64,000 bases of DNA from Limonium bicolor (lineage: Eukaryota > Streptophyta > Magnoliopsida > Caryophyllales > Plumbaginaceae). The position numbers were made by a program, and so were the translations under genes. The notes beneath the pieces are model-generated. The model had not been told where the DNA came from. It saw only the letters and a list, made by a program, of their open reading frames with translations, and made no database searches. Shown in pieces: positions 13,295 through 63,293 of this stretch. Where the stretch lies: assembly GCA_023374045.1 (NCBI GenBank), contig CM041783.1, forward strand, positions 123,071,503-123,135,502. The letters are read 5' to 3'. Position 1 is the stretch's first letter. The number at the start of each line of letters is the position of its first letter.

Positions 13295-14088
13295 GGATAC
13301 AAGTTCACACCAATGGAAGAGGACATGTAAGGTACCTAAGCTAACAAACTCATCCAAGAGAGAAATAACTCGGAGTCATGAGGCACCAGTTAGACGCGTA
13401 TATCAGACTCATCTTGAGATTAGAGAAACAACTACAGTAAGCACAAGGTGCTAGAGCATAGCTCGGTAACACTTACACCGAAAGTTAGTTCGATAGGGTA
13501 ACATGAGCTCTTGGGAATATACCATGAGCATGTACAAAATTTTAGAGAAGTAGAATAAAAGAGCTAGTCGAAATAATTAGCGTGTGTGATAATAATACCA
13601 CACATCGATATAATTTTTTCTCCATTACCATAATTATGGATGACCGTGTAGAAAACACCGTCACGTGGAGTTGAAACTGGCATGTAACTACTACTTAAAA
13701 GGGTAAACTAACCCTAAAGTACTTGGGTCATACCGCTTACGGAGCGATTGGCCCATGTTGCTTAGGTTTAATATACCTAACTAGTTTTGGGAAACAAATG
13801 ATGTGTTTATATCTCCCGATCAAACCGTATGTAATAGCCCAGGGTCCCACATGTGTGATATTGTCCGTTTTGGCACACCGGATGCACGGTTTTGCTCTTG
13901 GGTTTCACCCCAAAAGGCCTCACACAAGGGGGAGGTATCCATGCACCTATAAGGTGCACTTCGTGCTCCTCCCCAATCGATGTGGTAGGTAGCCCATCTC
14001 TGGGTGCTACACTCCGTTCTCCTCCCCCTCACGGGAGCCCAGCGTCCTCGCTGGCACACCGACCTGGGTCCGGCTCTGATACCATTTT
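13295..14088 (-). mobile_element. internal region of element E on the primer-site side (non-coding)
   Basis: No gene family is recognisable. The piece ends at its right with ggctctgatacca followed by four T and the LTR of E. On the minus strand this is a tggtatcagagc primer site (14073-14084) matching plant initiator Met-tRNA, so this is the 5' leader side of a minus-strand element. The left end is cut by element A. Confidence 0.6.
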
Positions 14089-22404: not shown

Positions 22405-25400
22405 TGTAACACCCCATCCAAAGCCAATCGTGGTTATCGCAAAACTGAACACCTAATTGAATTCGTCGTAACGGAAATAACAACACCTGGACCTTGCCAC
22501 GGTCTGATCATTAGAGTATACCGGCCTTAACAATTACAACACTTATCCAAAACACATAACCAACCCAAAACATCACCATCCATAATACCAACAACCAACC
22601 GAGTACAAGTAACTAAGTCATAATCACAACCTTACATCAGTTTAAATATCAACAGACGGGTGCACAAGCGCAACCCGCACTCAAAATAAACATCCCATCC
22701 TAAGTCTAACCGCTCCTACTCTCGTGGTGCGTCCTCATGGGTCTCTTACCTGCAAGTGTAAAAACAGCCCCCAAAGGGGGTCAGCACGAATGCTGGTACA
22801 CCCTCTCATGGCCCCCAAGCTAACGGGGCTACGACGACTAATTGCCGATAGCATGGAAATTGATTACATACACAAGCATGATATGAAGTGCAATAACAAT
22901 AATCCATATATGAACATGCATAGTTCACAAACAATGAACAACTCAAGCGTCCCCTTATCAAGTGGGTTAGTAACCCCCTCCTCAGTCCTGATTTCCTTAA
23001 TCTCAGTTCCTTACCTTACCTTAATCTTAATCTCAACTTAATCTCAGTATACAAACCGTTCCTGGAAGGGAATGGTTGTAGCTTAATTCGAACCTGGGAT
23101 TTAGGTGATCCCACCGCACCATCTTAATGCCACCTACTCTGGACGGGAGTCCAGCGTAGCTGAGCCGGCAACCGGCCCTAGGCTACAAGTCCGAAGACAA
23201 GTCCTTAAGCGGAGGGCGGAACTGATTCAGATACCGTCCCCCTTTCCTTAGCATGCATGACCGGAGTTCGGTCCCGGGTTTCCTCACTCAAGTTCCAGTT
23301 AGTAGAAATCTTAATCACCATGTGCTAGCTAAGCCTTAACGGGCATTAACCAACAACCACCAAAACTTAACTCTTATCCTTAACTCAGTAAGTACTAAAC
23401 TTGGTTAGTAACAATCTCAAGTCTCGTGGGTTAGTGCAAAGATAACAGATACACAACGAGAACAAATATAACCGGTTGCATGCTTTATCTTGTCTTAGTC
23501 ATAGCAATTAAAAGATAGCACACAAGCCGAGGGACACCTCGTTAGCAAGCAGGTCACAAGAAAGATTGTACCGTTCACCGTCGATCGTCGTTTGTTTTAT
23601 CTTCTCCGGGGTCCCAATTCACAAACCTAAAACATTGATTCATATTTAGGCCATTAGTTATTTGCACCTTACTTAACTCACTTAATTCCTAAAGATCCCC
23701 TTTGAATACCTTCTTAATTCCTTACCACTTAACCTTATAAACTTAACTTTAGACATTAAGGTTCTTACTCATATTAACTTAATCCCTTAAGTTCTTAGGA
23801 TCCTAATCATTACCACCCTACCAAAGGTATACCTTATTACCAATTAACATCCTTAGAATTCAAATTTCTTTTTTTTTTGTTTTAGGCCCGACCGAACTTA
23901 CGACCGACCTTACCCAAGGTCGGTCCATTCCAGAACATATTACTGCTTGAAAACTCTTCCCCGACCGACCTTGCAAGTCCAGTCCCCAAGGTCGGTCCAT
24001 TCCCGAGAGTTTCCCCGAGGGAAATTTAAGCTCGACCGAACTTGCCAAGTCCGGTCCCATGTTCGGTCGATTCCAGAGACTTATTACCGTACAAAATTCT
24101 AGGCATGACCGACCTTGCAAGTCCGGTCCCAATGTCGGTCCATTCCAGAGACTTAATTCCTTCACAAAATACAAGCCCGACCGAACTTGTAAGTCCGGTC
24201 CCCAAGTTCGGTCGGTTCCAGAAACATTCTCTGGCAGTGTAAACTGAGCTCGACCGACCTTGCAGGTCCGGTCCCTAAGGTCGGTCGGCTCCAGAACCTT
24301 GTTTCTAAATTCTCTTTTAACTCCAAACTTCTCCTCATATATTCTAATATGTTATAACCTCATTTGGGCACCTCAAATACACCTTAATCCAACCACTAAA
24401 CACTTTAAATCACTCACCAACATCCACTTTAATCATTATGCATTTTTCCTTGTAACCATGCCAACACTTGTAACATTTTCCACTAGGTTTCTAGGTGGTG
24501 GTTCATACCTAATGTAACCACTATGCCAAATGTTTCCCCACCACTATAACATCATCTCCCAAGCATCTTTCACCATCTAAAACTCTTTTATGCATTTACT
24601 TAAAGTTCCTTCACAAGCTTAAGCTTCCATCCATCAACACCTTATTTCCTTCCTAGTTGTTTACCAACATTTGCCTAAGTCCTAAATACTCAAATACATT
24701 CTCTTGATTCCTAAATCCTTCATAGTAATGCCTAAGTCATTATAACTCATTATAACACTTTATCTCACCCCTTTTTCATCAAGACAACCTCTAAAACTTC
24801 CTAGTACTTCCTTAGTCATTAAATTCCCTTAGAACATCTTAAACACTTAAGTTCTCCTTTAAATTTTGCCATGGGTTCTCTAGTATATAGCACATCCTAA
24901 CACTTGGTTTTTCTCCATCAAACAACCAATATCACTCAAATTCTCATCACAACACCTTAACACACAATTTACACCAAAACTACACCACATCATCTTATAG
25001 TGCATAAACTTAAATGCTTGGCACTTAGGCCCTTAAATGACAATAATCTTAACCACTGAATTTCCACATATATTTGCCTTCAACCTGCGAATACACACAA
25101 CAAGGCTCCCATTGAAATAAAATGCTTCTTGTAATTCACCTTGATATTCTTAAACTATCTATTTTTCCTCATTTGCTCCTTAGTCACAAGTTCACAATCA
25201 TGATCATTGTTTCTCCTAGGTCATATATAACCCTTTTCTAATGTAAACTCTACACTAAACTCATCACATATCTAATTCCCATTCCCTTAAACAATAAAAC
25301 ACCTTAAGGTAAGTAATTTACCTTGTTCTTTTACAAGCTTTAAAAACTTTCTTCCTTAGGTTTTTCCTTGCTCAATCTCGGTCACCAATATATATCTCCT

Positions 25401-26866: not shown

Positions 26867-29800
26867 TGTAACACCCCTACTACGCACATGTCACTAAATG
26901 AAATCGCAGCGGAAATAAATAACTAAACAGTAACTAACGCTTCGGTGCTACAACGCCGTCAACCACCCACGTGGTTGACAAGGCAGAATAAATACAAGTG
27001 TACCGGTCTGATGATCAGACTCCCGAGCATAAAACTAAACCATAAATACATCATATACAATACCGAGTGTTTACATATTCTTCACTGTAACACATCACTG
27101 TTAACCGCAACAACCAAATATATATAACGCCACGGGAGCACAGGCGCATCCCGGGCCATCATCCCAAAAGTATACAAAAGTAAATCACATCCTAGGATCT
27201 AAAGCCACTCCGCTTCTTCGATCCTCATCCTGTAGTAAAAGAAATATGGATCCCCCGAGGGGGTCAGCAACCCTTGGCTGGTATGGCTAACGCGCAGCCC
27301 ATCGGCTACCGGGATACGCGCAACTAATTGTCATGATAACATGGCATTCATTTATATACATAACATAACATAACATAACATGTGGCATAGCAACAATAGT
27401 GCACAGCACAACAACACATACACAGTGGATCTTCGTTCCACAATAACAAACCACAAGGGTCAAATAACACAAGAGCCTAGAGAGTGATTCACTCTCATGT
27501 TAAGCTCGTTAAACACACTCATTACCGTTCTGTTAGACGAACGAGTAACTTAAGTCACAGATGGTTCGGATTTAGTGACCCGAACACACCACACAAACAC
27601 ATGTTCCCACTAAACCAATCATAAGTCAGAATAGGTAAGCTTTGGAAGAAGCTAGCGGGAGATCGAACGCCAATTTAAGGAGAAAAATCTTAACAACATA
27701 AGAGTCGAATCTGATTCAGATATCTACTCTTAACTTACATGCATGACCGGGCAACCGGATTCCTCACTTCCCAGTTAACACTTGTTAGAAGTTCATAGTG
27801 GAACTTAACAACCAAACACAATAGGTGGTAAGTCATGTTAGACACACACAAGGGAAATGAGTCACAACATAACATCACAATAATATGAACAACTGTAAAC
27901 TCATTACATGTTTAAATCTTATAACGTCATAAGCACACAGAAAAACATACAACACACAAGCCGGTGTAAACCGGTAGGCAACAGACTGCAAGAAAACCAT
28001 ACCTTGGTCCTTGCCTTGATTTGTTTCCACCGTAGGTCACTCCTATACATGATTCAAGAATGTCGGTTAATTAACTTACTTAACCTCCAAATTTACTAAG
28101 TATTTAACTTGATTGTATGACATGTTTTAATGTCTAACTTACCCTAGGTTACCTTCATTATACACCCTAGGGTTAACTACATAAGTCACATTCTTTTCTG
28201 TTTTTTTTTTAAAAAAAAATTTTGGTATGTCCGACCCACCGTCCGACCCACAACTGGGTCGGACCCTTCCAGTGGTTTTCGGGTCTGAAGAACCTTACCA
28301 TGTCCGACCCATGTCCGACCCAACCTTCTGGGTCGGACCATTCCAGAGACATGTCCGACCCAAGTCCGACTCACTAGACTGGGTCGGACCATTACAGAGA
28401 ACTTCATCGACTTCAGAACATACACGTCCGACCCATGTCCGACCCACCCTTCTGGGTCGGACCATTACAGAACATTTCACCGCCTTACAAACATGCCCGT
28501 CCGACCCACGTCCGACTCACTCGACTGGGTCGGACCATTCCAGAAACATTTTCCCTCCTTTGAAATATGACCGTCCGACCCACCCTTTTGGGTCGGACCA
28601 TTACAGAACACTTCCCTAACGTCTAACAGAGGCTGTCCGACCCAAAACTGGGTCGGACCCCCTAGGTCGGACGTCCTCTAAACTTACCCAAATTTTGTTA
28701 AATCTTCACCAAACTTCTCCTAAAGCCTCTTAATGCTTCCTAACAACATTTGGTACCCTTATTTCCACATACAACATCCATGAAACTCATTTTCTAATTC
28801 CTTAAGCCTTTACTTATTTCTTTGTAAAATTCCTTAACACTTACAACATTTCATACTAGGTTTCTAAATGGTGTTCTCACCTATGATAACTACTATCCCA
28901 AAATGCTTTCTCCTCATCTTAACATCATCTCTTAAGCTCTATTTCTCACAACTAACTCCTTATGTCATTCTTGAAATTCTTTTCCAAGTTTACACTTTCT
29001 CCTTATTTTACCAAAGTTTGCCTAAGTCTTTATCTAAGTCCAAAATGACTTTGGTACCTACTAAAACCTCAAGCTCATGCCTAAGTCCTTGTGACATCCT
29101 AAATCACCTTAATGCATGTTCCTTACACAAGAACAACACTTAACCGATCTAAACACCTCTTAACTTATCAAACTCATTTTAACTCTTAGAACTTCTCATT
29201 TATTACCTAAGTTTCGACATAGGTTCTCCTAGAACATTACTAAACCAAAACACATTGTTTTTACCAACAAACAACCAAGAACACTAAAAATCCATCAAGC
29301 ACTTATTATACACAAACTTCACTCATAAAGCACTACATCACAATATAGTGCATAATTTAAATTGCATGGCACTTAGGCCCTTAAATGACATGGCTCTTAG
29401 GCCCTTAAGATGCATAAATCATAAACACTGAATTTCCACAATATATATTTGCCTTTGACCTGCAAATACACTCAACAACACATATGCCTTTTACTAAGCT
29501 CTTGGGAACACTTTACTAAGTCATTCACCATTTGCTCTTTAGGTAGTTTTAACAAGCATTATAAGCTCATTTCTCCTAAGGCATTAAACAACATTAGGTT
29601 AGTAGATTTACCTCTTTTTCCCAAATAACTTCTTTCTTGTTTCCTTTAAAAAAAACCGGTAGGGTATTTGATTCTTTGACAAGTTCTAAACAATATACAA
29701 ACATTATAATGAGTATTCAAGCTATAAGCTTCATCTCATTGTAAACCCTAATTTTACATTGTTTCAAAAACATTAATGTAGTTGTTTTACCTTGCTCTTT

Positions 29801-30910
29801 GGAGAGAGTTTGAATATCTAACAAGAGAGGACTCCACCTAGTCCATGAAGGGTTGGAATGAAGCTAGAACAAGGTCACACAAAGAGCTCCTTCAATATGT
29901 ATTTTCGGTCACAACAAAACATGAAGGAAATGAAGTTTTTATTTGAGATCCCTTACCTAGAAGCAAAGGAGAGTAACAATATGTAAAAATACAAGCTCAA
30001 GCTCCTTCAATGGTGGAACTCCATGGCACCGAAATGGTGGTCTTGGAATTTTAAGAAGATAGAAATGAAGAGCTTGATGAGAGGAAGAGATTGGTGGTGT
30101 TTGTTTTTGATTTGAACAAGTGAGCTAGATTTTACAAGAGATCAAAGAAGATGTTTAATGGAGGTGGTGTGGTATTACCGTGGAAGATAAGGAAGAAGAG
30201 GGGTTGAAGAGAGTGTGGAGCCGTGTGAACAAGGAAGGAAATGAGAGAATGAGATAGAATTACTTTTTTGAAGATATTTGTAGTAAAAGTAAAAAGTAGT
30301 TTATTTACTTATCATTACTTACTTAATACATTAATAAGAGAGTGGTGAGTCACCACACTTAAGAAAACCGGCCCCCATTTATACTTAGGGGTAATATAGT
30401 CTTTATTTGTCAATTTAATTACTTATACAAACATATGTTACAAAATAGCTTATAAAAATCACTATTCATGAAAACAAGGCACATAGAAGTGAAATTTTTT
30501 ATTTCCCATTAATATAGACATCCAAATGTGATATTATATAGTACACATATATATTTAAGAGTAATGATGGACATCTAGCCACTCAAAACTTATTTACAAG
30601 ACAATTTTTCAAAAATGTGCTTTAAGACTTCTTAAAGCACATTTTGTGTTTAAACTCGTTTTCAAGCTTGGTTTTCTTTGGTATTTGGTTTAATATGTTC
30701 ATTAGTGTATAAATGAGGTCTTGGTAAGTTCATTAGGTCTTAACCAAGTTTATCCCAAGCTTAGAGCACATTTTGGCTCTTATTGACTTTAAAGCACATT
30801 TTGTGTTTTCTTTTGTTTAAATTTGTTTACTAATGTTTCTAAGACTCTTTTTAGTCTTAATACACTATATTTAAGTGTTTAAACAATATATTAAGGTTTG
30901 GGGTATTTCA
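26867..30910 (-). repeat. 3' LTR of C (4044 bp)
   Basis: The plus strand reads tgtaacacccc...ggggtatttca. It contains a palindrome array at 28226-28675 and no gene. On the minus strand it starts tgaaatacccc, directly after the polypurine tract. Confidence 0.93.
28226..28675. repeat. palindrome array in the 3' LTR of C (gtccgaccca ... tgggtcggac)
   Basis: About seven units of gtccgacccatgtccgaccca-loop-tgggtcggacc are separated by AT-rich linkers, often with attccagaa or attacagaa after the closing arm. Open frames through the array are a by-product of the repeats. Confidence 0.92.
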
Positions 30911-30928
30911 ATCTACCCCCCTTAAAAG
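30911..30928 (-). other. polypurine tract of C
   Basis: On the minus strand cttttaaggggggtagat directly precedes the 3' LTR, the expected site for plus-strand DNA priming. Confidence 0.85.
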
Positions 30929-31241
30929 AACTTTGCCCTCAAAGTTCATACCTCCACATATCCTAAATGTTAGAACACGGGATACTTATAAACAATACTT
31001 CCATACATCATTAACAACACACTTACATAACATTGGACACCAGGTCCATACAACATAACATCGGGTACATAACATTGGACACAAGGTCCATACAACATTA
31101 TCCACATCATTCAGACACAACGGTCTGTAACATAACAACATAACATAGACGATGTATTCAAATACACGTCGTACACACATAACCGAAACGGCTCTACCCC
31201 CCTTAAAAAGGGGTACGTCCCGTACCCGATACACATAAGGA

Positions 31242-32906
31242 CTAAGAAGTAAACAATGACGGGTACTTCGCCTTCATCTTATCTTCTAGCTCCCAAGTGG
31301 CCTCCTCAACGTCCTGGTTAGACCAAAGAACTTTCACCAGTCTCACGGACTTATGGTGAGTGTCTCGAGTCTTAGTATCCAGAATCCGTACCGGAGTCTC
31401 CACTGATCGCATGGTCGGCTCTAAGGTTAGCCTTTCAGGCTGAAGCACATGAGACGGATGAGACATATACTTCTTCAACTGGGACACATGAAATACATCA
31501 TGTACCTTGCCCAGCTCGGCGGGTAGGATTAGTCTATAGGCTACCGGGCCGATCCGCTCCGTCACAACATAAGGCCCCACATACTTTGGGCTCAACTTGC
31601 CCTTCTGGCCAAAACGAAATACTCCCTTCATGGGGGATACTCTCAAAAATACCTGATCGCCCACGGCGAACTCCAGGTCACGTCTGCGCACATCTGCGTA
31701 CGACTTCTGTCTATCCTGAGCTGCCTTCATGTTAGCCCGGATCTGGCGAACTTCTGCCTGAACTTGTTCAAGATACTCTGGTCCTATAATGACCGTCTCA
31801 CTCGACTCATCCCAGCATAATGGCGTGCGGCATGGTCTACCGTACAAGGCCTGGAAGGGAGACATCTTGATCGAAGCATGATAACTGTTGTAGTAACTAA
31901 ACTCGATCAGATGTAACTTATCAATCCAGCTGGTCTGAAAGTCAAGTGCACAAGCACGTAGCATATCCTCAAGTGTCTGAATGGTGCGCTCACTCTGACC
32001 ATCGGTCTGTGGGTGAAACGCTGTACTCAATTTCAGTTCAGTACCCAATGCCTCTCGTGTAGACTTCCAATATCTGGATAAGAATCTGGTATCTCTGTCG
32101 GATACAATCGTTTTCGGTACACCATGATGTCTTACAATTTCTTTATCAAAGAGTTCTGCCAATCTTGCCACTTTCCAAGTGTCCTTCATCGGAATGAATC
32201 GGGCCACCTTGGTCAGTCGGTCAACTACAACCCATATCATATTCAGACCTCCCCTTGTAGGCGGAAGCCCTACTACAAAGTCCATGGAGATATCATGGAA
32301 CTTCCACTCAGGCACTGGCATTGGTTGTACCATACCACCAGGCCGTCGGTGCTCAAACTTGACCTTCTGGCAAGTGAGACACCCTAACTCATAATCACTT
32401 ACATCTTTCTTCATTCCAGTCCACCAAAAATACCTTTTCACACTCTTATACATCTTTGAAGCTCCGGGGTGAATCGAAGTAGTAGAACAATGGGATTCAC
32501 TCAATATGCGCTCCTTCAACTCAGCGCTACTCCTAGGTATACACAATCGGCCATTCAGCCTAATCAGGTCATCATCGTGGAGTCTGAAGTCGTACTTCTG
32601 ACCCTCGAATGTGCCATCAATAAGCTTCTGCCGGATCTCCAGCATATACTGATCCGTCATCTGAGCACTCCGCACCTCTTCAACCAAGCCAGTATGAGAG
32701 ACTAGCGAATGGAGAGAGTGTGCTCGGCGACTCAGTGCGTCAGCTACCACATTTGCCTTACCCTCTTTATATTGCAGATTAATATCGTAGTCATTCAGAA
32801 ATTCAACCCACCTTCTTTGCCTCATGTTCAACTCTTTCTGAGTGAACAAGTACTTTAAGCTTTTGTGGTCAGAATAAATCGTCACACTTACCCCATACAA
32901 ATAATG
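31242..32906 (-). CDS. RNase H end, integrase and chromodomain of C
   Basis: An open frame of about 550 codons. It starts within RNase H ([22 protein letters not shown]), followed by the HHCC zinc site ([17 protein letters not shown] ... CLTCQKVK), the catalytic core with [17 protein letters not shown] and the Glu in [12 protein letters not shown], a GPF-type C-terminal region ([17 protein letters not shown]), and a chromodomain-like tail ([20 protein letters not shown]) ending at 31242. Chromodomains of this class are thought to steer integration to silent chromatin. A single stop (TGA at 32907-32909) separates it from RT; otherwise it reads intact. Confidence 0.93.
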
Positions 32907-34046
32907 TCACCATATCTTCAATGCGAAGACAATGGCACCCAATTCTAAGTCGTGGGTAGGGTAGTTCTCCTCATGCTTCTTCAGCTGACGGGAGGCGTAT
33001 GCTACGACCTTCCCGTGTTGCATCAATACACAACCCATACCTCTACCTGATGCGTCGCAGTAGACCTCAAAACCATCTGGACCGTCTGGTATAGTCAGGA
33101 CTGGTGCAGATGTCAGAGCATCCTTGAGACTCGTGAAAGAACTCTCACAGTCGACTGTCCACTCGAATGGTGCATCCTTCTTCATTAAGGAAGTCATCGG
33201 CTTCGAGACACTGGAGAAGTCCTTCACAAACCTCCTATAATAACCTGCCAGACCGAGGAAGCTCCTGATATCAGTGATTGTCTTCGGCCTAGGCCAGGTG
33301 CGCACTGCATCTATCTTTGCCGGATCAACAGCGATCCCGGCCTCAGAAATCACATGTCCAAGGAAGGATACTTGGTTTAGCCAAAATTCACATTTCGAAA
33401 ACTTTGCATACAACTGGTTCCTCCTCAATGTTTGTAACACATTTCTCAGGTGGCTTTCGTGCTCACCTCTTGATTTAGAATACACAAGAATGTCATCGAT
33501 GAAGACTACCACAGACTTGTCCAACTGATCTTGGAACAAGCGGTTCATTAAGTCCATGAACTTAGCTGGTGCATTTGATAAGCCAAACGGCATAACTGTG
33601 AACTCATAATGCCCATACGTCGTTCTGAAAGCTGTCTTTTCGATATCACTGTCACGGATGGCAATCTGATGGTATCCGGAACGTAAGTCTATCTTGGAGA
33701 ATACTGATGCACCCCTCAGCTGATCAAATAGATCGTCGATGCGTGGTAAAGGGTAACGGTTCTTCACCGTAACAGCATTCAGCTCCTGATAATCAATACA
33801 CAGGCGGAGGCTCCCGTCCTTCTTCTTCACGAAGAGAACCGGCGCTCCCCATGGTAAAACACTAGGGCGGATAAAGCCCTTGTCAAGTAGGTCTCTCAGC
33901 TGCTCCTTGAGCTCTGTCATTTCTGCTGGAGCCATACGATAAGGTGCTTTCGCAATGGGTCCAGTGCCCGGAACTAAGTCGATCTCAAACTCAACCTCTC
34001 GTGCTGGCGGCATGCCCGGCAGTTCCTTAGGGAATACATCAGGAAA
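32907..34046 (-). pseudogene. reverse transcriptase and RNase H of C
   Basis: RT motifs in order are [71 protein letters not shown] and the active site FIDDILVYS, followed by RNase H with [15 protein letters not shown] and [19 protein letters not shown] at 34044-34046 separates it from the protease, and the TGA at 32907 cuts RNase H. Both look like single-base changes in an otherwise continuous polyprotein. Confidence 0.92.
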
Positions 34047-34640
34047 CTACGACACTACCGGCACATCTGGGCTAAACTCAGGGTCTCTCTCTATGTCCTG
34101 GACATAGCAGAGGTATACATCACCCCCTCGTCGTAACTCACGATACATGGCCATGGCGGTGATGATCTGAGTCGAAGGCTCCCTGGGCCTCTGGCGGTAT
34201 GATATGGTAACCCCAGATGGACTCCGAAGAAGCAGTCGATGCTCGGCACACAGGATTCTGCCCTTGTACCGCTCCAACCAGTTCATCCCGACAATCACAT
34301 CAAATCCAAGTCCGTCGAACTCTATCAGGTCGATGGGGAACTCTTCACCTCTGATTCTTACAATGACATCTCGGTGGTAGCGGGTACACCTGATCCGCTC
34401 TTTCGATGGGAGAGTGACCAAGAAGTCTGGCATCTCCTCTCCATCTAACCCCAGCCTCTTCGCAAAAGATAGCGAAACAAATGTGTGTGAGGCTCCAGAG
34501 TCGAATAAGAACGATGCATCCACGCCATTCACTGGAAAGGTACCGGTGAGGATTGTGCCGCTCTTGCCGGCTTCTGCCTCATTGCAGATACTCAGTGTAC
34601 CTCCCGTTCCGAGTGCACAGCCTAATTCATTGGCAAACTA
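34047..34640 (-). pseudogene. aspartic protease of C
   Basis: A retropepsin with active site FLFDSGASHTFVS and the later hydrophobic VIVGMNWL. It is open from about 34640 to 34047. Upstream the minus strand has tacttattag followed by this exon-like start, compatible with a splice acceptor. The stop at its end is a single codon before RT. Confidence 0.85.
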
Positions 34641-34649
34641 ATAAGTACT

Positions 34650-34804
34650 AGGTAACAACACGGTTGATATACTTCAATAACTCCACTTTATTCATTAACA
34701 CTTCCTCTCACAACATTGTTGGTTTACATGGTTGATACAACTTAAGACATACATAACTCCCTTAACATATACTGGCTTAACACATTACAAAAGTATACAA
34801 GGCT
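34650..34804 (-). other. 3'-UTR-like tail after the AlkB-like segment
   Basis: Between the AlkB stop codon and the protease start lies AT-rich non-coding DNA with AATAAA on the minus strand (34687-34692). It does not look like retroelement coding sequence and may have come along with the captured transcript. Confidence 0.4.
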
Positions 34805-35575
34805 TTAGAATTGTCTGAAGGTCAAATTCAAACGTCCGGGTTTCATGTGTGTGGCATTGATCACTGCCAACGGTGCGGTATTCAGTTTGATCTTCCTGAT
34901 GCCATGGTATAGCATCCTTGACTGCCCACCCATAACTAGCACATCTCCTGACTTTAGTATTAACTTCCTTACGAGATCAGCACGCTTCTGCTCGCCATAC
35001 ACAAACACTGCGGTATCACCAATGGACCAAGACACCACGGGTACTCCCTTACTTAGAGACTCGGGTGACTCGTCCTTATCTTGGTGTAAACCTAATCGTC
35101 CACCTTTCTGGTAGAAGTTCACAATACACAAATCTGCTTTCACATTTGGAATTGAATCCGTTTCAACTTGTTGAGCAATTCCCACAGCCACGGCGGCGTG
35201 ATTAACGACCGCACGGAACTCTACGTCAGGTATACTTGGACTGTTGCTCCACTTCGGCTCAGCACTTCTTGATATGACTTGGTGTAAGGGTTCCAGTCCT
35301 TACCTGCCATCATCTCAATTGCATTCTTGATCCGTTCGGATATTCAGGTGTGTAGAAACCTCCAGGTTTAGCTCCAAGTTCGTCGCATCGTCTGATGACA
35401 TGGATATTGTGCTTCCGGTGTCAGGTATCCTTTAGAAGTATCATACCTGGCTGGATAACCTGACATTGCTCCATGGAAAGTCGGTGATGTTGAGTGGTGT
35501 TTCTTCAGGGTTTGGTGTGGGTGGGATTGGATAACATATATTGAAGGTTCCTTTAAGTTTAGAATTATCTATTAG
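34805..35575 (-). pseudogene. AlkB-like Fe(II)/2-oxoglutarate dioxygenase captured in element C
   Basis: AlkB-family enzymes oxidatively remove methyl groups from nucleic acid bases. From 35191 to 34805 an open frame of 128 codons keeps the full catalytic core: the metal ligands H-x-D in RLGLHQDKDES (residues 36 and 38), the distal His in MLYHGI (residue 96), and the family signature R-x-N-x-T-x-R in GRLNLTFRQF (residues 120-126). Upstream to about 35575 the similarity continues in changing frames (pieces such as VIQPGMILLKGYLTPEAQ and GAKPGGFYTPEYP), so at least two frameshifts are present. No intron interrupts it, as expected of an RNA-derived copy. It lies in sense orientation between the gag knuckle and the protease. 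It most resembles the plant ALKBH1-like group, from memory of the family. Confidence 0.85.
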
Positions 35576-35744
35576 GTGTCTTTCACACTAACTTTGACTC
35601 GGCTTACTCACATGATAATACACTTGAACTCACTAGTACACATAAGCATGAAATGCGTATGCACTCACTTATTACATTCAAACATTTAGGCGGTACCTGG
35701 TCTAGAAGAGGGCCCTGGCGCCTCAGACCGCATCCACCAATTCA
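35576..35744 (-). other. junction between gag and the AlkB-like segment
   Basis: About 170 bases with no recognised protein. On the minus strand ctagaccag/gtaccg just after the gag end could be a splice donor pairing with the acceptor before the protease, which would place the AlkB segment inside an intron. This is speculative. Confidence 0.3.
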
Positions 35745-36042
35745 TCAAGGCGGCCTTGCTAGGTCCCGACCCCTTCCCCTCTGGGAATCAGTGTGCCTCT
35801 GATCTGTGGGTGGCTGATTAGCCATCTTCGGGCCATCAATAGCTGCTGTGGCCTTACCCTTCCACTGTCCTCTGGGCTTGTTTGACTCTGTCTGTTGGGG
35901 TTCGGTCATCTTCGTGGTCACGGTGACCCCACTTCTCGCAGTACGACACTGCACCTCATTTCCCTTGCAGTCCTTGCCGGGTGGTCTCCATTGCACCACT
36001 TACAGTAATAGTGGCGCTCCGGTCCAGAGCCCGTGCTAGCTG

Positions 36043-36119
36043 CTAACACAATACACACTCAGTACTTGTTTCACAACTTATCAACATACACTTCACTTAT
36101 CACACAAGATTAAAATTAC
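36043..36119 (-). other. predicted intron in gag of C (77 bp)
   Basis: Minus strand: CTAAGG/GTAATT donor and TTGTGTTAG/CAGC acceptor flank AT-rich sequence, with coding-like GC-rich DNA on both sides. Confidence 0.55.
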
Positions 36120-36378
36120 CCTTAGGTGGGTAAGAGCGTAGGGGCTTCGCCGCATAAGCATATGTGAGCTTCAGTGGCTCCTCAGCTGTGGTGGTTTGGG
36201 CTTGGCCCTTGTCACCCTGGTGCTGACTCTTCTGGGGCTGGGGATAAGGTTTCTTCTTCTTCTTTCCTCCCCCGTACCCCTGCGACTCTGGCCCTCGCTC
36301 GTGGCCTTGCGCTTGTGCGCATTCTCCTCGTCCCTCAGACGGACGGTGATCTCCACCTTAGCAGCGGCATGATAGCAC

Positions 36379-36485
36379 TCCTGAATTTAGGATGGTCAGT
36401 CATGCCCCGCAATACATACTCACAAACTCACATTAATACTCACTTGTAGACTACACATATTCACATCACTCTTTATTTAAATTAC
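36379..36485 (-). other. predicted intron in gag of C (107 bp)
   Basis: Minus strand: CTTGCAG/GTAATT donor and AAATTCAG/GAGTGC acceptor. The intervening DNA is AT-rich with stops in all frames, and gag-like coding sequence resumes after it. Confidence 0.6.
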
Positions 36486-37354
36486 CTGCAAGGTAGTATA
36501 CTCAGCTGGCCCCATCCCATAGCGAAGACGGTGGCTGAGACCGTTATAGAAACGGTTTACCAGCACCCGGTTCGAGTATCCCAGGTCCGGTAACAGGTGG
36601 ACAAGGCCGGTGAAGGCAGTGTAATACTCATCAACCGACACCTTGTCCCCCTGCCTCAGACTATCCAGCTCAAGGCGCTTGGCCTCTTGAACGTGCACAG
36701 GGTAGTATTTGGCTCGCAGTAGAGCCGTGTACTCCCTCCATCCAAACTGAGGATCCGCCATCCGGTCCTCTCTCACAAGCTTCCACCAGTTTTGTGCCGA
36801 ACCCTTCAGGTAGTAAGCGGCAAGACGGACCTTAGCCTCTGCGGTACAGCCAAGGTCTCGTAGGCGGTCTCCAACTCGGAGATGTACGCCTCCAGCTTAC
36901 GTGGGTCGGTCTCCCCATGAAATGAAGGGGGTCTCAGTCTGCCAATGCCTTGACCCAGTTGGTCTCTCGTGGCGGTGGCGGTGGTGGTTGAACTCCGGGC
37001 ATTGCCCCTGCTGTATCGCAGCTACAAGCTGGGGTACCATCTGGGCTACAGCGGCTGCTACAGCCTCAGCCATAACCTGGCCGTAGTATTCTCGCCCTGG
37101 TCACCCACATTACCGTACCACTTCCGCGGCCTCTACCACGCGGTCTACCTGCCATCTGTATTCACATGAATATTCATTAGCAATATGCTTGCACACTTAT
37201 CGGTCCAACGGTTGTAACGCTTCCCGACAATAAGGTATCTCCACACTTAGTTAGTGGTTAACCTTTCCATAATGTTCACTGAAGTAACTGTAGTTAAGTC
37301 TCCTAACTCGGTATATTCCTAAGCTCGGTATTCTAGTCATCAGAGCGATACTTC

Positions 37355-37366
37355 GCTCTGATACCA
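37355..37366 (-). other. primer-binding site of C
   Basis: Minus strand tggtatcagagc, five bases from the LTR end, complementary to the 3' end of plant initiator Met-tRNA. Confidence 0.92.
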
Positions 37367-37371
37367 CTTTT

Positions 37372-40300
37372 TGTAACACCCCTACTACGCACATGTCACT
37401 AAATGAAATCGCAGCGGAAATAATTAACTAAACAGTAACTAACGCTTCAGTGCTACAACGCCGTCAACCACCCACGTGGTTGACAAGGCAGAATAAATAC
37501 AAGTGTACCGGTCTGATGATCAGACTCCCGAGCATAAAACTAAAACCATAAATACACATATACAATACCGAGTGTTTACATATTTTCACTGTAACACATC
37601 ACTGTAACTGCAACAACCAAATATATATACGCCACGGGAGCACAGGCGCATCCCGGGCCATCATCCCAAAAGTATACAAAAGTAAATCACATCCTAGGAT
37701 CTAGAGCCACTCCGCTTCTTCGATCCTCATCCTGCAGTAAAAGAATTGGATCCCCCGAGGGGGTCAGCAACCCTTGGCTGGTATGGTAACGCGCAGCCCA
37801 TCGGCTACCGGGATACGCGCAACTAATTGTCATGATAACATGGCATTCATTTATATACATAACATACATACATAACATGTGGCATAGCATCAATAGTGCA
37901 CAGCACAACAACATACACAGTGGATCTTCGTTCCACAATAACAAACCACAAGGGTCAAATAACACAAGAGCCTAGAGAGTGATTCACTCTCATGTTAAGC
38001 TCGTTAAACACACTCATTACCGTTCTGTTAGACGAACGAGTAACTTAAGTCACAGATGGTTCGGGTTTAGTGACCCGAACACACCACACAAACACATGTT
38101 CCCACTAAACCGATCATAAGTCAGAATAGGTAAGCTTTGGAAGAAGCTAGCGGGAGATCGAACGCCAAATTAAGGAGAACAATCTTAACACATAAGAGTC
38201 GAATCTGATTCAGATATCTACTCTTAACTTACATGCATGACCGGACAACCGGATTCCTCACTTCCCAGTTAACACTTGTTAGAAGTTCATAGTGGAACTT
38301 AACAACCAAACACAATAGGTGGTAAGTCATGTTAGACACACACAAGGGAAATGAGTCACAACATAACATCACAATAATATGAACAACTGTAAACTCATTA
38401 CATGTTTAAATCTTATAACGTCATAACACACAGAAAAACATACAACACACAAGCCGGTGTAAACCGGTAGGCAACAGACTGCAAGAAAACCATACCTTGG
38501 TCCTTGCCTTGATTTGTTTCCACCGTAGGTCACTCCTATACATGATTCAAGAATGTCGGTTAATTAACTTACTTAACCTCCAAATTTACTAAGTATTTAA
38601 CATGATTGTATGACATGTTTAATGTCTAACTTACCCTAGGTTACCTTCATTATACACCCTAGGGTTAACTACATAAGTCACATTCTTTTCTGTTTTTTTT
38701 TTAAATTTTGGTATGTCCGACCCACCGTCCGACCCACAACTGGGTCGGACCCTTCCAGTGGTTTTCGGGTCTGAAGAACCTTACCATGTCCGACCCATGT
38801 CCGACCCAACCTTCTGGGTCGGACCATTCCAGAGACATGTCCGACCCAAGTCCGACTCACTAGACTGGGTCGGACCATTACAGAGAACTTCATCGACTTC
38901 AGAACATACACGTCCGACCGACCCATGTCCGACCCACCCTTCTGGGTCGGACCATTACAGAACATTTCACCGCCTTACAAACATGCCCGTCCGACCCACG
39001 TCCGACTCACTCGACTGGGTCGGACCATTCCAGAAACATTTTCCCTCCTTTGAAATATGACCGTCCGACCCATGTCCGACCCACCCTTTTGGGTCGGACC
39101 ATTACAGAACACTTTCCTAACGTCTAACAGAGGCTGTCCGACCCAAAACTGGGTCGGACCCCTGGGTCGGACGTCCTCTAAACTTACCCAAATTTTGTCA
39201 AATCTTCACCAAACTTCTCCTAATGCCTCTTAATGCTTCCTAACAACATTTGGTACCCTTATATCCACATACAACATCCATGAAACTCATTTTCTAATTC
39301 CTTAAGCCTTTACTTATTTCTTTGTAAAATTCCTTAACACTTACAACATTTTATACTAGGTTTCTAAATGGTGTTTCTCACCTATGATAACTACTATCCC
39401 AAAATGCTTTCTCCTCATCTTAACATCATCTCTTAAGCATTATTTCTCACAACTAACTCCTTATGTCATTCTTGAAATTCTTTTCCAAGTTTACACTTTC
39501 TCCTTATTTTACCAAAGTTTGCCTAAGTCTTTATCTAAGTCCAAAATGACTTTGGTACATACTAAAACCTCAAGCTCATGCCTAAGTCCTTGTGACATCC
39601 TAAATCACCTTAATGCATGTTTCCTTACACAAGAACAACACTTAACCATCTAAACACCTCTTAACTTATCAAACTCATTTTAAACTCCTAGAACTTCACA
39701 TTTATTACCTAAATTTCGACATAGATTCTCCTAGAACATTACTAAACCAAAACACATTGTTTTTACCAACAAACAACCAAGAACACTAAAATCCATCAAG
39801 CACTTATTATACACAAACTCACTCATAAAGCACTACATCACAATATAGTGCATAATTTAAATTGCATGGCACTTAGGCCCTTAAATGACATGGCTCTTAG
39901 GCCCTTAAGATGCATAAATCATAAACACTGAATTTCCACAATATATTTGCCTTTGACCTGCAAATACACTCAACAACACATATGCCTTTTACTAAGCTCT
40001 TGGAACACTTTACTAAGTCATTCACCATTTGCTCTTTAGGTAGTTTTAACAAGCATTATAAGCTCATTTCTCCTAAGGCATTAAACAACATTAGGTTAGT
40101 AGATTTACCTCTTTTCCAAATAACTTCTTTCTTGTTTCCTTTAAAAACCGGTAGGGTATTTGATTCTTTGACAAGTTCTAAACAATATACAAACATTATA
40201 ATGAGTATTCAAGCTATAAGCTTCATCTCATTGTAAACCCTAATTTTACATTGTTTCAAAAACATTAATGTAGTTGTTTTACCTTGCTCTTTGAGAGAGT

Positions 40301-41388
40301 TTGAATATCTAACAAGAGAGGACTCCACCTAGTCCATGAAGGTTGGAATGAAGCTAGAACAAGGTCACACAAAGAGCTCCTTCAATATGTATTTTCGGTC
40401 ACAACAAAACATGAAGGAAATGAAGTTTTTTTTGAGATTCCTTACCTAGAAGCAAAGGAGAGTAACAATATGTAAAAATACAAGCTCAAGCTCCTTCAAT
40501 GGTGGAACTCCATGGCACCGAAATGGTGGTCTTGGAATTTTAAGAAGATAGAATGAAGAGCTTGATGAGAGGAAGAGATTGGTGGTGTTTGTTTTTGATT
40601 TGAACAAGTGAGCTAGATTTTACAAGAGATCAAAGAAGAGGTTTAATGGAGGTGGTGTGGTATTACCGTGGAAGAGAAGGAAGAAGAGGGTTGAGAGAGT
40701 GTGGAGCCGTGTGAACAAGGAAGGAAATGAGAGAATGAGATAGAATTACTTTTTGAAGATATTTGTAGTAAAGTAAAAGTAGTTTATTTACTTATCATTA
40801 CTATAATACATTAATAAGAGAGTGGTGAGTCACCACACTTAAGAAAACCGGCCCCCATTTATATAGGGGTAATATAGTCTTTATTTGTCAATTTAATTAC
40901 TTATACAAACATATGTTACAAAATAGCTTATAAAAATCACTATTCATGAAAACAAGGCACATAGAAGTGAAATTTTTGATTTCCCATTAATATAGACATC
41001 CAAATGTGATATTATATAGTACACATATATATTTAAGAGTAATGATGGACATCTAGCCACTCAAAACTCATTTACAAGACAATTTTTCAAAAATGTGCTT
41101 TAAGACTCCTTAAAGCACATTTTGTGTTTAAACTTGTTTTCAAGCTTGGTTTTCTTTGGTAATTGGTTTAATATGTTCATTAGTGTATAAATGAGGTCTT
41201 GGTAAGTTCATTAGGTCTTAACCAAGTTTATCCCAAGCTTAGAGCACATTTTGGCTCTTATTGACTTTAAAGCACATTTTGTGTTTTCTTTTGTTTAAAT
41301 TTGTTTACTAATGTTTCTAAGACTCTTTTTAGTCTTAATACACCATATTTAAGTATTTAAACAATATATTAAGGTTTGGGGTATTTCA
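37372..41388 (-). repeat. 5' LTR of C (4017 bp)
   Basis: The partner of 26867-30910, with the same ends and order of blocks and small indels mainly in homopolymers and short repeats. No gene inside. Confidence 0.93.
38712..39175. repeat. palindrome array in the 5' LTR of C
   Basis: The same gtccgaccca...tgggtcggac array as in the other LTR, but with one additional gtccgaccca arm near 39070 and an extra gaccga near 38915. The array thus changed between the two LTRs since insertion. Confidence 0.92.
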
Positions 41389-41917: not shown

Positions 41918-44114
41918 TGTTATAACCCGCATAGTTGCAACATTATATTATATCTGGCTTATGTAATGATCTAAGATGGATTGCATTATGATTGTCAGTT
42001 GGGACTTCGGCGGTATTGTTTTGATTGATGAGGGCAAGGAAGTCATTGCTTAAAACAATTAAGTTAATTGTTTTCTTTAATTAATAAGGAAAGGGAGCCT
42101 TATTTAATTATAAATCTTCTAATTGTTTTACATTACGATCAGTTTTCCTCCACTAGTTCCATCGTGCGTTCAGAACATCGACTTCCATTCTTCTCTCTCT
42201 CTGTTCTCTCTCTTGCTGAGGATCGTGAAGGCTGCTGCTACAATCGGATTGGAGGGTTTTGCTGCTGCATTTCTCTGATCGATTCAGGTATGTATTCAAG
42301 AATTCGGGACTGCGTTGGTGGTTTTCTTCTCTCTCTGTTTTCTGATTTTGAGCCGTGGTACATGATTAAATCAGAAGGATTCGTTGCTGTTGAGTTGTGA
42401 TTGTGCGGGCTGTGGAACTGCTCAGATTGTGGAGTTTATTCACTTCCGAAATCAGGTTGGTGTTGCAGATTTTGGGGTTTGGATAATCTAGGGTTCTTCA
42501 TTTCAGTTTCTGATTTTTGTGTCAATTGGTTTGGTTAATCAGTGGCTGTTGATCTATCCGGATTGTTGCTCTGCGTGGATTGTGGCTGCTGCCTCAGTTC
42601 GTTGGTGTTTTTGCTGATAAACGAGGTAGGTGGTTACTCGATTCGGTTTGGAAGTTCAGCCATGGGGATTACAATGTTTCTGTTTTGGGTGTGAATTCTG
42701 TTTGTGTTGTCTATTTGGTTGCGTTTTGGAATGGTTAAAACCCCATGGTTCTCTGTTTTTCTCTGTGATTGGTGTGTGTATCAATTTGGCAATTCGTGAT
42801 GATGTTTTTGCACAAGTTTCTGCTCTGCTCGTCTTCTGGAAAATGCAGTTTTCGCACTGTCCGAACTTCCGTCCGAGCTTTGAAGTTCGGACAGTGCGTT
42901 TTGCTCTATTGATTTTCAAAGTTCGGGGCATGTCCGAACATAATCCGAACTTTGATGTCGGACACGCCCTTGGGTTCTCCTGATTTTAGTTCGACCTGTG
43001 TCCGAACTTGGACGTCCGGACACAAGGTCGGACCTTCCGCGTAACTCTTTTCCATAACCCGTTCGAACATCAGTCCGAACATTGATGTTCGGACCTTCGA
43101 ATTCCTCTATCTGATTTCAATTCGACTTGTGTCCGAACATTGATGTCCGGACACAAGTTCGGACATTTGACAATCTCTGGTTTCCGAGTCTCGACTTGTG
43201 TCCGAACATCGACGTCCGGACACAAGTTCGGACACCCTCTGTTTTTCAGCGTAACTTCTTCGTTTGAACTTCGATTTGTGTGCCGTCTGCGGCGGTTGGG
43301 TCCCTTTATGACCTGTGCTACTGATTTATGAGTGTTTTGGCATATCTAATGCAATCTTGCTTCTGTTTAAGCAACCCTTCTGTTTTGGGACATTTCCAAT
43401 TGTTTCTGAGCCGTGAATGGCTGGGTCGAGCTATTCCGTGGTATGCAATGTAGACGTCGTTCTGAGTGTGGGTCTTCCCTTTCTGTTCTGTGGGGTGATG
43501 AACCTTTGGCTTTCGAGTCATTTCTGCAATTGCGAGAGACCTGGTATGGTCATAGGTCCTCGACCCTTCTGAGTGTGTGCATTGTGTCTTTTCCCTTTTC
43601 TGTTTAAGAGTTCGATTGTTTCTGAATTGGGAACCCTGAGTTCCCCTGTTCTGTTCTGGAAACTTCTGAGTATTGAGAATTGTGGATATAACGTTTATCT
43701 TCTCCTTTTTCTGATTTCAATTGTTTTGAGCGACCTTACTGATGACGGTCGCTGCTTACTGGGCATAGTTGTGTGCTCATTCCCCTACTTTTAACATTTT
43801 TACAGATTGATCAGCGAGGATCACTTATTCAGTTTCTGGAGCTTAGTTTATGTTATAGCTCATTTGTTATTTGATATTCTTACTCAGGCTTGTAGCCTTC
43901 GGGCCTTACTCTGTTAGACCTCTGTTTCTGTTTGGAACATGGATTTGGGATTTTGTATTTGCTTCCGCTATATTTGAATACTTTGGTTTACAATGTTTAT
44001 GTAACTCTGTTTTGGGCCTTTATTGCATTTGAGTGTTTTAGAGCCTTGCGTTATTGGTAGTAATACGCGGCGTGTAATACCCTTAACTCTTAGGCCGGTT
44101 TTAGGGGTGTTACA
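41918..44114 (+). repeat. 5' LTR of D (2197 bp)
   Basis: Reads tgttataaccc...gggtgttaca. It contains a CT-microsatellite near 42193, several non-coding open frames and the palindrome array 42857-43235. It is very similar to the 3' LTR. Confidence 0.95.
42857..43235. repeat. palindrome array in the 5' LTR of D (gtccgaac ... gttcggac)
   Basis: Five or six units of tgtccgaac-attgatgtc-cggacacaagttcggaca type, each forming a hairpin of about 30-45 bases, separated by 25-50 bases of coding-like but unrelated linker. Confidence 0.92.
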
Positions 44115-50591: not shown

Positions 50592-50639
50592 AATTTATAA
50601 CTCATCAATAAAAAGTATTATTTTTTGGAATATGAAAGA

Positions 50640-51700
50640 AAAAGTAAGCACCGGCCAACGAGCCGCAGGCTATCATGCCTTGAAAGTAAGCACCGGCCAA
50701 CGAGCCGCAGGCTATCATGCCTTGAAAGTAAGCACCGGCCAACGAGCCGCAGGCTATCATGCCTTGAAAGAAAGCACCGGCCAACGAGCCGCAGGCTATC
50801 ATGCCTTGAAAGAAAAAAACACCGGCCAACGAGCCGCAGGCTATCATGCCTTGAAAAAAAAGAAAGCACCGGCCAACGAGCCGCAGGCTATCATGCCTTG
50901 AAAAAAAGAAAGCACCGGCCAACGAGCCGCAGGCTATCATGCCTTGAAAGAAAAAGAAAGCACCGGCCAACGAGCCGCAGGCTATCATGCCTTGAAAGAA
51001 AAAGAAAGCACCGGCCAACGAGCCGCAGGCTATCATGCCTTGAAAGAAAAAGAAAGCACCGGCCAACGAGCCGCAGACTATGCCTTGAAAGAAAAAGAAA
51101 GCACCGGCCAACGAGCCGCAGGCTATCATGCCTTGAAGAAAAAGAAAGCACCGGCCAACGAGCCGCAGGCAATCATGCCTTGAAAGAAAAAGAAAGCACC
51201 GGCCAACGAGCCGCAGGCTATCATGCCTTGAAAGAAAAAGAAAGCACTGGCCAACGAGCCGCAGGCTATCATGCCTTGAAAGAAAAAGAAAGCACCGGCC
51301 AACGAGCCGCAGACTATCATGCCTTGAAAGAAAAAGAAAGCACCGGCCAACGAGCCGCAGGCTATCATGCCTTGAAGAAAAAGAAAGCACCGGCCAACGA
51401 GCCGCAGACTATCATGCCTTGAAAGAAAAAGAAAGCACCGGCCAACGAGCCGCAGGCTATCATGCCTAGAAAGAAAAAGAAAGCACCGGCCAACGAGCCG
51501 CAGGCTATCATGCCTTGAAAGAAAAAGAAAGCACCGGCCAACGAGCCGCAGGCTATCATCCCTTGAAAGAAAAAGAAAGCACCGGCCAACGAGCCGCAGG
51601 CTATCATGCCTTGAAAGAAAAAGAAAGCATCGGCCAACGAGCCGCAGGCTATCACGCCTTGAAAAAACAGCATCCGGCCAACGTGCCGCAAGCTAAACAT
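50640..51700. repeat. 48-bp minisatellite of B
   Basis: About 22-23 units with the core caccggccaacgagccgcag and ctatcatgccttgaaa, with a variable A/G-rich spacer. The first units are 42 bp and later ones 45-48 bp. One degenerate last unit lies near 51670. It sits between the convergent ends of pol (50591) and the antisense gene (52066). It is the reverse complement of the array in A. Confidence 0.95.
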
Positions 51701-61088: not shown

Positions 61089-63293
61089 TGTTATAACCCG
61101 CATAGTTGCAACATTATATTATATCCGGTTTATGTAATGATCTAAGATGGGTTACATTATGATTGTTAGTTGGGACTTCGGCGGTATTGTTTTGATAGAT
61201 GAGGGCAAGGAAGTCATTGCTTAAAACAATTAAGGTAATTGTTTTCTTTAATTAATAAGGAAAGGGAGCCTTATTTAATTATAAATCTTCTAATTGTTTT
61301 ACATTATGATCAGTTTTCCTCCACTAGTTCCATCGTGCGTTCAGAACATCGACTTCCATTCTTCTCTCTCTCTCTCTGTTCTCTCTCTTGCTGAGGATCG
61401 TGAAGGCTGCTGCTACAATCAGATTGGAGGGTTTTGCTGCTGCGTTTCTCTGATCGATTCAGGTTTGTATTCAAGAATTCGGGACTGCGTTGGTGGTTTT
61501 CTTCTCTCTCTGTTTTCTGATTTTGAGCTGTGGTACATGATTAAATCAGAAGGCTTCGTTGCTGTTGAGTTGTGATTGTGCGGGCTGTGGAACTGCTGCA
61601 GATTGTGGAGTTTATTCACTTCTGAAATCAGGTTGGTGTTGCAGATTTTGGGGTTTGGATAATCTAGGGTTCTTCATTTCAGTTTCTGATTTTTGTGTCA
61701 ATTGGTTTGGTTAATCAGTGGCTGTTGATCTGTCCGTATTGTTGCTCTGCGTGGATTGTGCCTGCTGCCTCAGTTCGTTGTTGTTTCTGCTGATAAACGA
61801 GGTAGGTGGTTACTCGATTCGGTTTGGAAGTTCAGCCATGGGGATTGCAACGGTTCTGTTTTGGGTGTGAATTCTGTTTGTGTTGTCTGTTTGGTTGCGT
61901 TTTGGAATGGTTAAAACCCCATGGTTCTCTGTTTTTCTCTGTGATTGGTGTGTGTATCAATTTGGCAATTCGTGATGATGTTTTTGCACAAGTTTCTGCT
62001 CTGCTCGTCTTCTGGAAAATGCAGTTTTCGCACTGTCCGAACTTCCGTCCAAGCTTTGAAGTTCGGACAGTGCGTTTTGCTCTATTGATTTTCAAAGTTC
62101 GGGGCATGTCCGAACTTTGATGTTCAGACACGCCCTTGGGTTCTTCCCTGATTTTAGTTCGACCTGTGTCCGAACTTGGACGTCCGGACACAAGGTCGGA
62201 CCTTCCGCGTAACTCTTTTCCGTAACCCGTCCGAACATCAGTCCGAACATTGATGTTCGGACCTTCTGAATTCCTCTATCTGATTTCAATTCGACTTGTG
62301 TCCGAACATTGATGTCCGGACACAAGTTCGGACATTTGACAATCTCTGGTTTCCGAGTCTCGACTTGTGTCTGAACATCGACGTCCGGACACAAGTTCGG
62401 ACACCCCTCTGTTTTCAGCGTAACTTCTTCGTTTGAACTTCGATTTGTGTGCCGTCTGCGGCATTGGGTCCCTTACGACCTGTGCTACAGATTTATGAGT
62501 GTTTGGGCATATCTAAATGCAATCTTGCTTCTATTTAATCAACCCTTCTGTTTTGGGACATTTCACATTGTTTCTGAGCCGTGAATGGCTGGGTCGAGCT
62601 ATTCCGTGGTATACCATGTAGATGTCGTTCTGAGTGTGGGTCATTCCCATTCTGTTCTGTGGGGTTGACGAACCCTTTGGCTCTTTCGAGTCATTTCTGC
62701 GTTGTCGAGAGACCTGGTATGGTCTATGGGTCTTCGACCCTTCTGAGTGTGTGCATTGTGTCTTGTCCCCTTTCTATTTAAGAGTTCTGATTGTTTCTGA
62801 ATTGGGAACCCTTGAGTTCCCGTCTGTTTCTGTTCTGGAAACTTCTGAGTATTGAGAATTGTGGATATAACGTTTATCTTCTCCTTCTTCTGATTTCAAT
62901 TGTTTTGAGCGACCTTACTGATGACGGTCGCTGCTTACTGGGCATAGTTGTGTGCTCATTCCCCTACTTTTAACATTTTTGCAGATTGATCAGCGAGGAT
63001 CACTTATTCAGTTTCTGGAGCTTAGTTTATGTTATAGCTCATTTGTTATTTGATATTCTTACTCAGGCTTGTATCCTTCGGGCCTTACTCTGTTAGACCT
63101 CTGTTTCTGTTTGGAACATGTATTTGGGATTTTGTATTTGCTTCCGCTGTATTTGAATACTTTGGTTTACAATGTTTATGTAATTCTGTTTTGGGCCTTT
63201 ATTGCATTTGAGTGTTTTAGAGCCTTGCGTTATTGGTAGTAATACGCGGCGTGTAATACCCTTAACTCTTAGGCCGGTTTTAAGGGTGTTACA
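61089..63293 (+). repeat. 3' LTR of D (2205 bp)
   Basis: The partner of 41918-44114, with the same ends, and palindrome array at 62034-62403. Confidence 0.95.
62034..62403. repeat. palindrome array in the 3' LTR of D
   Basis: The same gtccgaac...gttcggac units as in the 5' LTR, with slight differences in one unit near 62105-62130 (an intact arm here, a changed one there). Confidence 0.92.

Follow-up and report, generated by a model that had tools for sequence, protein, structure and literature searches.

A Ty3/gypsy retrotransposon family of Limonium bicolor carries a conserved ALKBH1-like AlkB domain, for which alternative 3' splicing is predicted to yield either Gag-AlkB or Gag-Pol, and the resulting enzyme would likely be packaged and remove methyl groups from RNA or cDNA of the element itself; we give this reading somewhat better than even weight. 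The copy from which our description proceeds, element C, lies within a 64,000-nucleotide stretch of contig CM041783.1, the whole of which was analyzed and is here called the window. Its parts are as follows.

26867..41388, minus strand: whole element C, LTR to LTR (self-comparison, edges)
37372..41388, minus strand: 5' LTR (self-comparison)
37355..37366, minus strand: primer binding site TGGTATCAGAGC (edge inspection)
36486..36776, minus strand: gag capsid block, part of predicted exon 1 (PF03732, 2.6e-12; border by alignment)
36381..36485, minus strand: predicted intron 1, 105 nt, GT..AG (copy alignment)
36120..36380, minus strand: predicted gag exon 2 (copy alignment)
36043..36119, minus strand: predicted intron 2, 77 nt, GT..AG (copy alignment)
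35697..36042, minus strand: predicted gag exon 3 with zinc knuckle, ending ..SSRP plus one base; frame-broken in the window copy
35695..35696, minus strand: predicted common splice donor GT, CCAG/GTACC (25/25 copies)
35551..35552, minus strand: predicted AlkB splice acceptor AG (24/25 copies by motif, L043 by eye)
34805..35550, minus strand: AlkB coding segment, comprising leader (35445-35550) and AlkB domain (34805-35444, stop TAA) (Pfam, tblastn, splice-border alignment)
34622..34804, minus strand: post-AlkB spacer, 67% AT, ending in the predicted protease acceptor AG at 34622-34623 (25/25 copies)
34047..34621, minus strand: protease (PF08284, 1.7e-22 at 34047-34532; start by splice border)
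32907..34013, minus strand: reverse transcriptase (RT) and start of RNase H (PF00078, 3.3e-35; PF17919, 3.3e-25)
31242..32900, minus strand: end of RNase H, integrase, Tf2-1-like SH3 and chromodomain-like tail (PF17921, 7.3e-17; PF24626, 2e-25; PF00385, 7.8e-4)
26867..30910, minus strand: 3' LTR (self-comparison)

Element C has the LTRs, the primer binding site and the gag-PR-RT-RH-IN order of a Ty3/gypsy element. The two LTRs, each of about 4 kb, are 97.49% identical (37 mismatches in 4065 columns), and the flanking CTGGC and ATGGC agree in four of the five letters of a target site duplication. We take the primer binding site to be of the initiator tRNA-Met type, and the long LTRs presumably recall the Tekay/Del-like lineage of chromoviruses. 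Read along the minus strand, gag (the PF03732 reading frame spans 36477-36776) is followed by AlkB, protease, RT-RNase H, integrase and a tail that we call chromodomain-like, PF00385 scoring 19.8 and 22.8 bits after the integrase in two copies against a Pfam cut-off of 25.1. AlkB thus stands between gag and protease in sense with both, as the earlier note had placed it. Both LTRs contain GTCCGACCC-rich tandem repeats with a unit of about 73 bp (28298-28582 and 38784-39146), and an array resembling them lies at 23913-24286. Elsewhere in the window, a further TGGTATCAGAGC primer binding site, at 14073-14084 on the minus strand, probably belongs to another element. On the plus strand, a second element (41918-63293) has LTR-like repeats at 41918-44114 and 61089-63293 (95.8%) with Ty3-type RT and integrase, and no AlkB match was found in it. 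Two arrays of 48-bp units, at 3600-4412 (~17 copies) and 50633-51664 (~22 copies), run in opposite orientation, both inside a pair of inverted copies of about 5 kb. An Rfam search of the whole window at gathering thresholds returned zero matches.

The identity of the domain is well defined by the open part of the window copy, a reading frame of 128 aa at 34805-35191 on the minus strand that matches PF13532 over profile positions 81-194 with an E-value of 1.3e-36 and 127.1 bits, against a curated cut-off of 31.2; copy L039 reaches 165.2 bits. The same frame matches rice ALKBH1 (5xeg) at 2.2e-39 and contains HxD, the distal His and RxNxTxR. The remaining AlkB homology of this copy, located by tblastn with P0001 (a 210-aa relative used as search query), continues further upstream, divided between two other frames (35444-35313 and 35433-35239), so that the segment is frame-broken there. 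The earlier note had read both the complete signature within 128 open codons and the shifted upstream similarity correctly; the span that it gave, 34805-35575, was nearly right, the coding segment being better set at 34805-35550. Across the family, ten active-site positions, including the HxD..H iron ligands, RxNxTxR and the 2-oxoglutarate ligands, are invariant in 22/22 coding copies. OsALKBH1 is the best fold match of the element-type AlkB, a structure model of P0001 superposing on 5xeg with a TM-score of 0.93, and by closest fold and place in the trees the element AlkB is, on modelled structure and phylogeny, plant ALKBH1-like. It has the same fold and active site as OsALKBH1 (5xeg/5xoi) and the ALKBH1C/1D-like proteins, but within its AlkB segment is without the long N-terminal part of its cellular ALKBH1-like counterparts and forms a clade of its own, in which the element copies join P0001-P0005 and P0241. 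Pfam and the trees accordingly bear out, in line with the earlier note, an ALKBH1-like domain carried by an element of Ty3/gypsy type whose tail is chromodomain-like. A bacterial origin of the domain is ruled out by the trees, and a single scan of viral contigs for AlkB relatives gave three remote loci at 28-34% identity. In the same tree, P0034 and P0019 of Paspalum notatum form a long branch beside Oryza; P0034 represents a cluster of 42 sequences, all of an ALKBH1-like protein from this one grass, P0029 is from the same species, and the set may perhaps reflect a separate amplification or capture.

Sister copies were sought in 2.92 Gb of genome. When the best 150 of 50036 first-look candidates for AlkB were scored with P0001, 148 spanned residues 1-210 and 137 had no internal stop (hand count), a sample biased to intact copies because it was ranked on AlkB score. 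In all 20 of the 10-kb stretches found through AlkB, gag, AlkB and protease follow one another in the same order and orientation (L023 and L024 have a partial gag, L018 a partial protease), and 18 of the 20 have RT and integrase, often over several frames. Copies found without recourse to AlkB tell the same story: from the best 111 of 106314 RT candidates scored, eight loci were taken, which include the window copy and so leave seven others, and from the best 150 of 53307 protease candidates scored, eight were taken. AlkB is in place in 15/15 of these, its constant presence being a point that the earlier note had proposed to check. The domain reads open and in register in eight of the 15 and not so in seven; the eight comprise five of seven RT-found copies (L031, L032 and L034, together with L035 and L036, which have small in-frame changes) and three of eight protease-found copies (L039, L042 and L043). 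L040 is open, yet out of register in part, and L042 has a frame break within the leader. The copies fall into two subfamilies, abundant and window-type, with 74.6-78.6% identity over the 126-residue AlkB core of the window (20 copies); the abundant-subfamily copies were all found via AlkB, and its presence there is not an independent count. An insertion private to the window copy is ruled out, as the same junctions, the common breakpoint that the earlier note had proposed to look for, are found again in the 24 other copies examined. Since the same segment occupies the same place in every other family copy checked, the observation is beyond chance. Individual copies decay while the family as a whole retains AlkB, and the upstream frameshifts of the window copy are decay of that copy, given that sister copies are open. 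By these searches the family is a high-copy Ty3/gypsy family. Window-subfamily protease copies also stand in rows at 10.2-10.3 kb spacing (G000:C4:317465949-317497151 and C2:303778467-303789228), which suggests tandem LTR-internal-LTR-internal arrays.

Retention of the domain bears the mark of selection. Between the subfamilies, comparing 19 of the 20 abundant copies (L017 left out) with three window-type copies (L031, L032 and L034), and skipping one stop codon each in L024 and L028, AlkB has a mean dN of 0.182 and dS of 1.398, a ratio of ~0.13 over 19 x 3 pairs and well below the value of 1 against which the earlier note had wished it compared. Pooled pN/pS within the two groups is 0.13 and 0.17, and a wrong-frame control on one pair gave dN/dS of 1.21 and 1.81. 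As the ratio stays at ~0.13 at a dS of ~1.4, purifying selection maintains AlkB in the family. The protein nonetheless evolves about twice as fast as RT, with a dN of 0.18 against 0.08-0.10, the RT figure coming from four abundant copies, three with one stop, at a dS too large for computing.

The surroundings of the domain, an aspect absent from the earlier note, point to how it may be expressed. Judged by composition, the region from gag to protease in which AlkB sits is AT-rich and intron-like: in five copies AT content is 64-74% between the gag blocks and on either side of AlkB, against 40-55% in the coding blocks. In 60-column bins of the window aligned to two abundant copies, with bins at borders left out, identity is 0.31-0.47 in the spacers beside AlkB and rises to 0.52-0.82 over AlkB and 0.63-0.92 over protease, whereas gag exon 3, at 0.35-0.61, is as diverged as the spacers. 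Seven splice dinucleotides, chosen by eye before counting, are kept in 16, 17, 17, 17, 17, 16 and 17 of 17 aligned copies (the window, in which all seven are present, and 16 of the 20, L013, L018, L020 and L024 being excluded because their ends are odd or partial). All seven are common to both subfamilies, as against 6/31 of the other AG and 10/24 of the other GT in the same spacers; in the post-AlkB spacer, however, 6/9 GT are shared with the window, which tells against the prediction. When L037-L044 are added, the last gag block ends CCAG/GTAC in 25/25 copies and protease starts after AG in 25/25. In element C this donor is 146 nt from the end of the AlkB acceptor and 1075 nt from that of the protease acceptor. 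Predicted introns 1 and 2 split gag, with phases derived by hand; the donor and both later acceptors are all phase 1, and the donor would therefore join either acceptor in frame. A conserved donor and acceptors that agree in phase are what would be expected of an alternatively spliced LTR element. By hand count, the final 70 gag residues before the donor are open and in register in 14/25 copies, and leader plus AlkB are in register from acceptor to AlkB end in 12/24.

The leader, which begins at the AlkB acceptor and runs for 35 codons to the domain Met, is itself kept as protein (dN/dS of 0.24, 0.24 and 0.34 in three pairs, with few sites), and no conserved ATG was found in it in the 25-copy alignment. 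The more distant relative P0241 aligns to leader and domain at 59%, and at the leader position an FDIC stretch occurs in P0242 and P0243, which are cellular relatives, an FNIC/FDIC stretch being common to both sides. These features fit a reading in which translation would enter from gag via splicing. We accordingly predict a choice between two 3' splice sites from one gag donor, with splicing of the element RNA inferred from the letters of the sites: use of the near acceptor would produce Gag-AlkB, use of the far acceptor Gag-Pol, and retention of the intron Gag alone. The Gag moiety would bring AlkB into virus-like particles, where the packaged enzyme would act on the RNA or cDNA of the element by demethylation or repair; going by the ALKBH1 class, likely substrates are N6-methyladenine, or N1-methyladenine and N3-methylcytosine. 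Reverse transcription must use unspliced RNA, because the introns are present in genomic copies.

Other accounts of the domain must be weighed against this one. AlkB could be a separate protein with its own start, the Met at 35444, translated from unspliced or partly spliced RNA and acting in trans on element or host RNA in the manner proposed for the orchid ORF2. The Met at that position is found in 22/22 coding copies, and orchid AlkB does sit in a separate ORF (PMC9289625), but we regard this account as unlikely: the same Met occurs in the cellular relatives (RPGMVLL in P0242 and P0243) and is thus ancestral, and conservation at the protein level extends over the 35 codons before it, from the acceptor onward, without a conserved start. 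The predicted fusion, which sets AlkB directly after the zinc knuckle region, could also be taken to mean that the domain is an RNA-binding tail of Gag and no enzyme; with the iron and 2-oxoglutarate ligand positions invariant in 22/22 copies, we find this very improbable.

The earlier note had also entertained a passive captured transcript without function. A broken frame in the window copy and the seven of 15 RT- or protease-found copies that are not open in register are what such a remnant would leave, yet the stretches flanking AlkB diverge freely while its active site is invariant in 22/22 and its dN/dS is held at ~0.13 over a dS of ~1.4, and sister copies are open. The selection test largely refutes the idea, to which we attach hardly any probability. 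A Gag-fused, packaged AlkB enzyme remains the reading that we favor.

AlkB-carrying plant LTR retrotransposons have been described before. The earlier note was aware of no AlkB in a plant LTR retrotransposon, but PMC9289625 reports one from Phalaenopsis: Gypsy_Pa_2799 is a Tat/Ogre-like element of 25.5 kb in which an ALKBH5-like domain forms the C-terminal portion of a separate ORF2 of 565 aa, Gag-Pol of the Phalaenopsis elements is in one ORF, the ALKBH5-like protein is active on m6A ssRNA in vitro, and a screen of 121 angiosperm genomes found 2-ODD domains only in Phalaenopsis elements. Both are plant Ty3/gypsy elements with a conserved, multi-copy AlkB-family (PF13532) domain; element C differs in its length of ~14.5 kb, chromodomain-like tail, ALKBH1-like class, placement of AlkB between gag and protease, intron-like spacers and predicted Gag fusion, and does not have the ALKBH5-like AlkB ending a separate ORF2 by which the orchid type is there defined. 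The differences thus concern the class of AlkB, the type of element, the position and the predicted expression. Among the matches listed in searches of the open-access literature, no LTR element had an AlkB of ALKBH1 type or one fused to Gag.

Introns, too, have precedents. Plant LTR elements are in general without introns, with Ogre and EVADE as exceptions (PMC12786077); the Ogre intron has been described (PMC6317226), and splicing has been reported for BARE1, with Bagy2, Ogre and CRR also named (PMC3735527). In Ogre, EVADE and BARE1, as predicted for element C, partial or alternative splicing balances Gag against Pol (PMC6317226, PMC12786077, PMC3735527). Element C would differ from them in that one donor is predicted to serve two acceptors, the nearer of which adds an enzyme to Gag. 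AlkB domains are also described in plant RNA viruses of the Alpha- and Betaflexiviridae and Closteroviridae, which, as described in PMC9289625, resemble element C in being parasites with an RNA stage that carry AlkB.

Taken at its widest, the reading is that a host ALKBH1-type demethylase has become a passenger of the capsid, one donor being joined to the AlkB or the protease acceptor and the enzyme in the particle cleaning RNA or cDNA before integration, in a second, independent capture of AlkB by a plant Ty3/gypsy element; we judge the chances of this to be about even. If true, element C would be a rare case of a plant LTR element with several introns in which splice choice appends an enzyme to Gag, and the conserved pair of acceptors makes for a sharp prediction, namely a Gag-AlkB protein in particles. 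A second capture, of another AlkB class by another type of element, would moreover be an argument that the fitness of the element is affected by methyl marks on, or alkylation damage to, retrotransposon nucleic acid.
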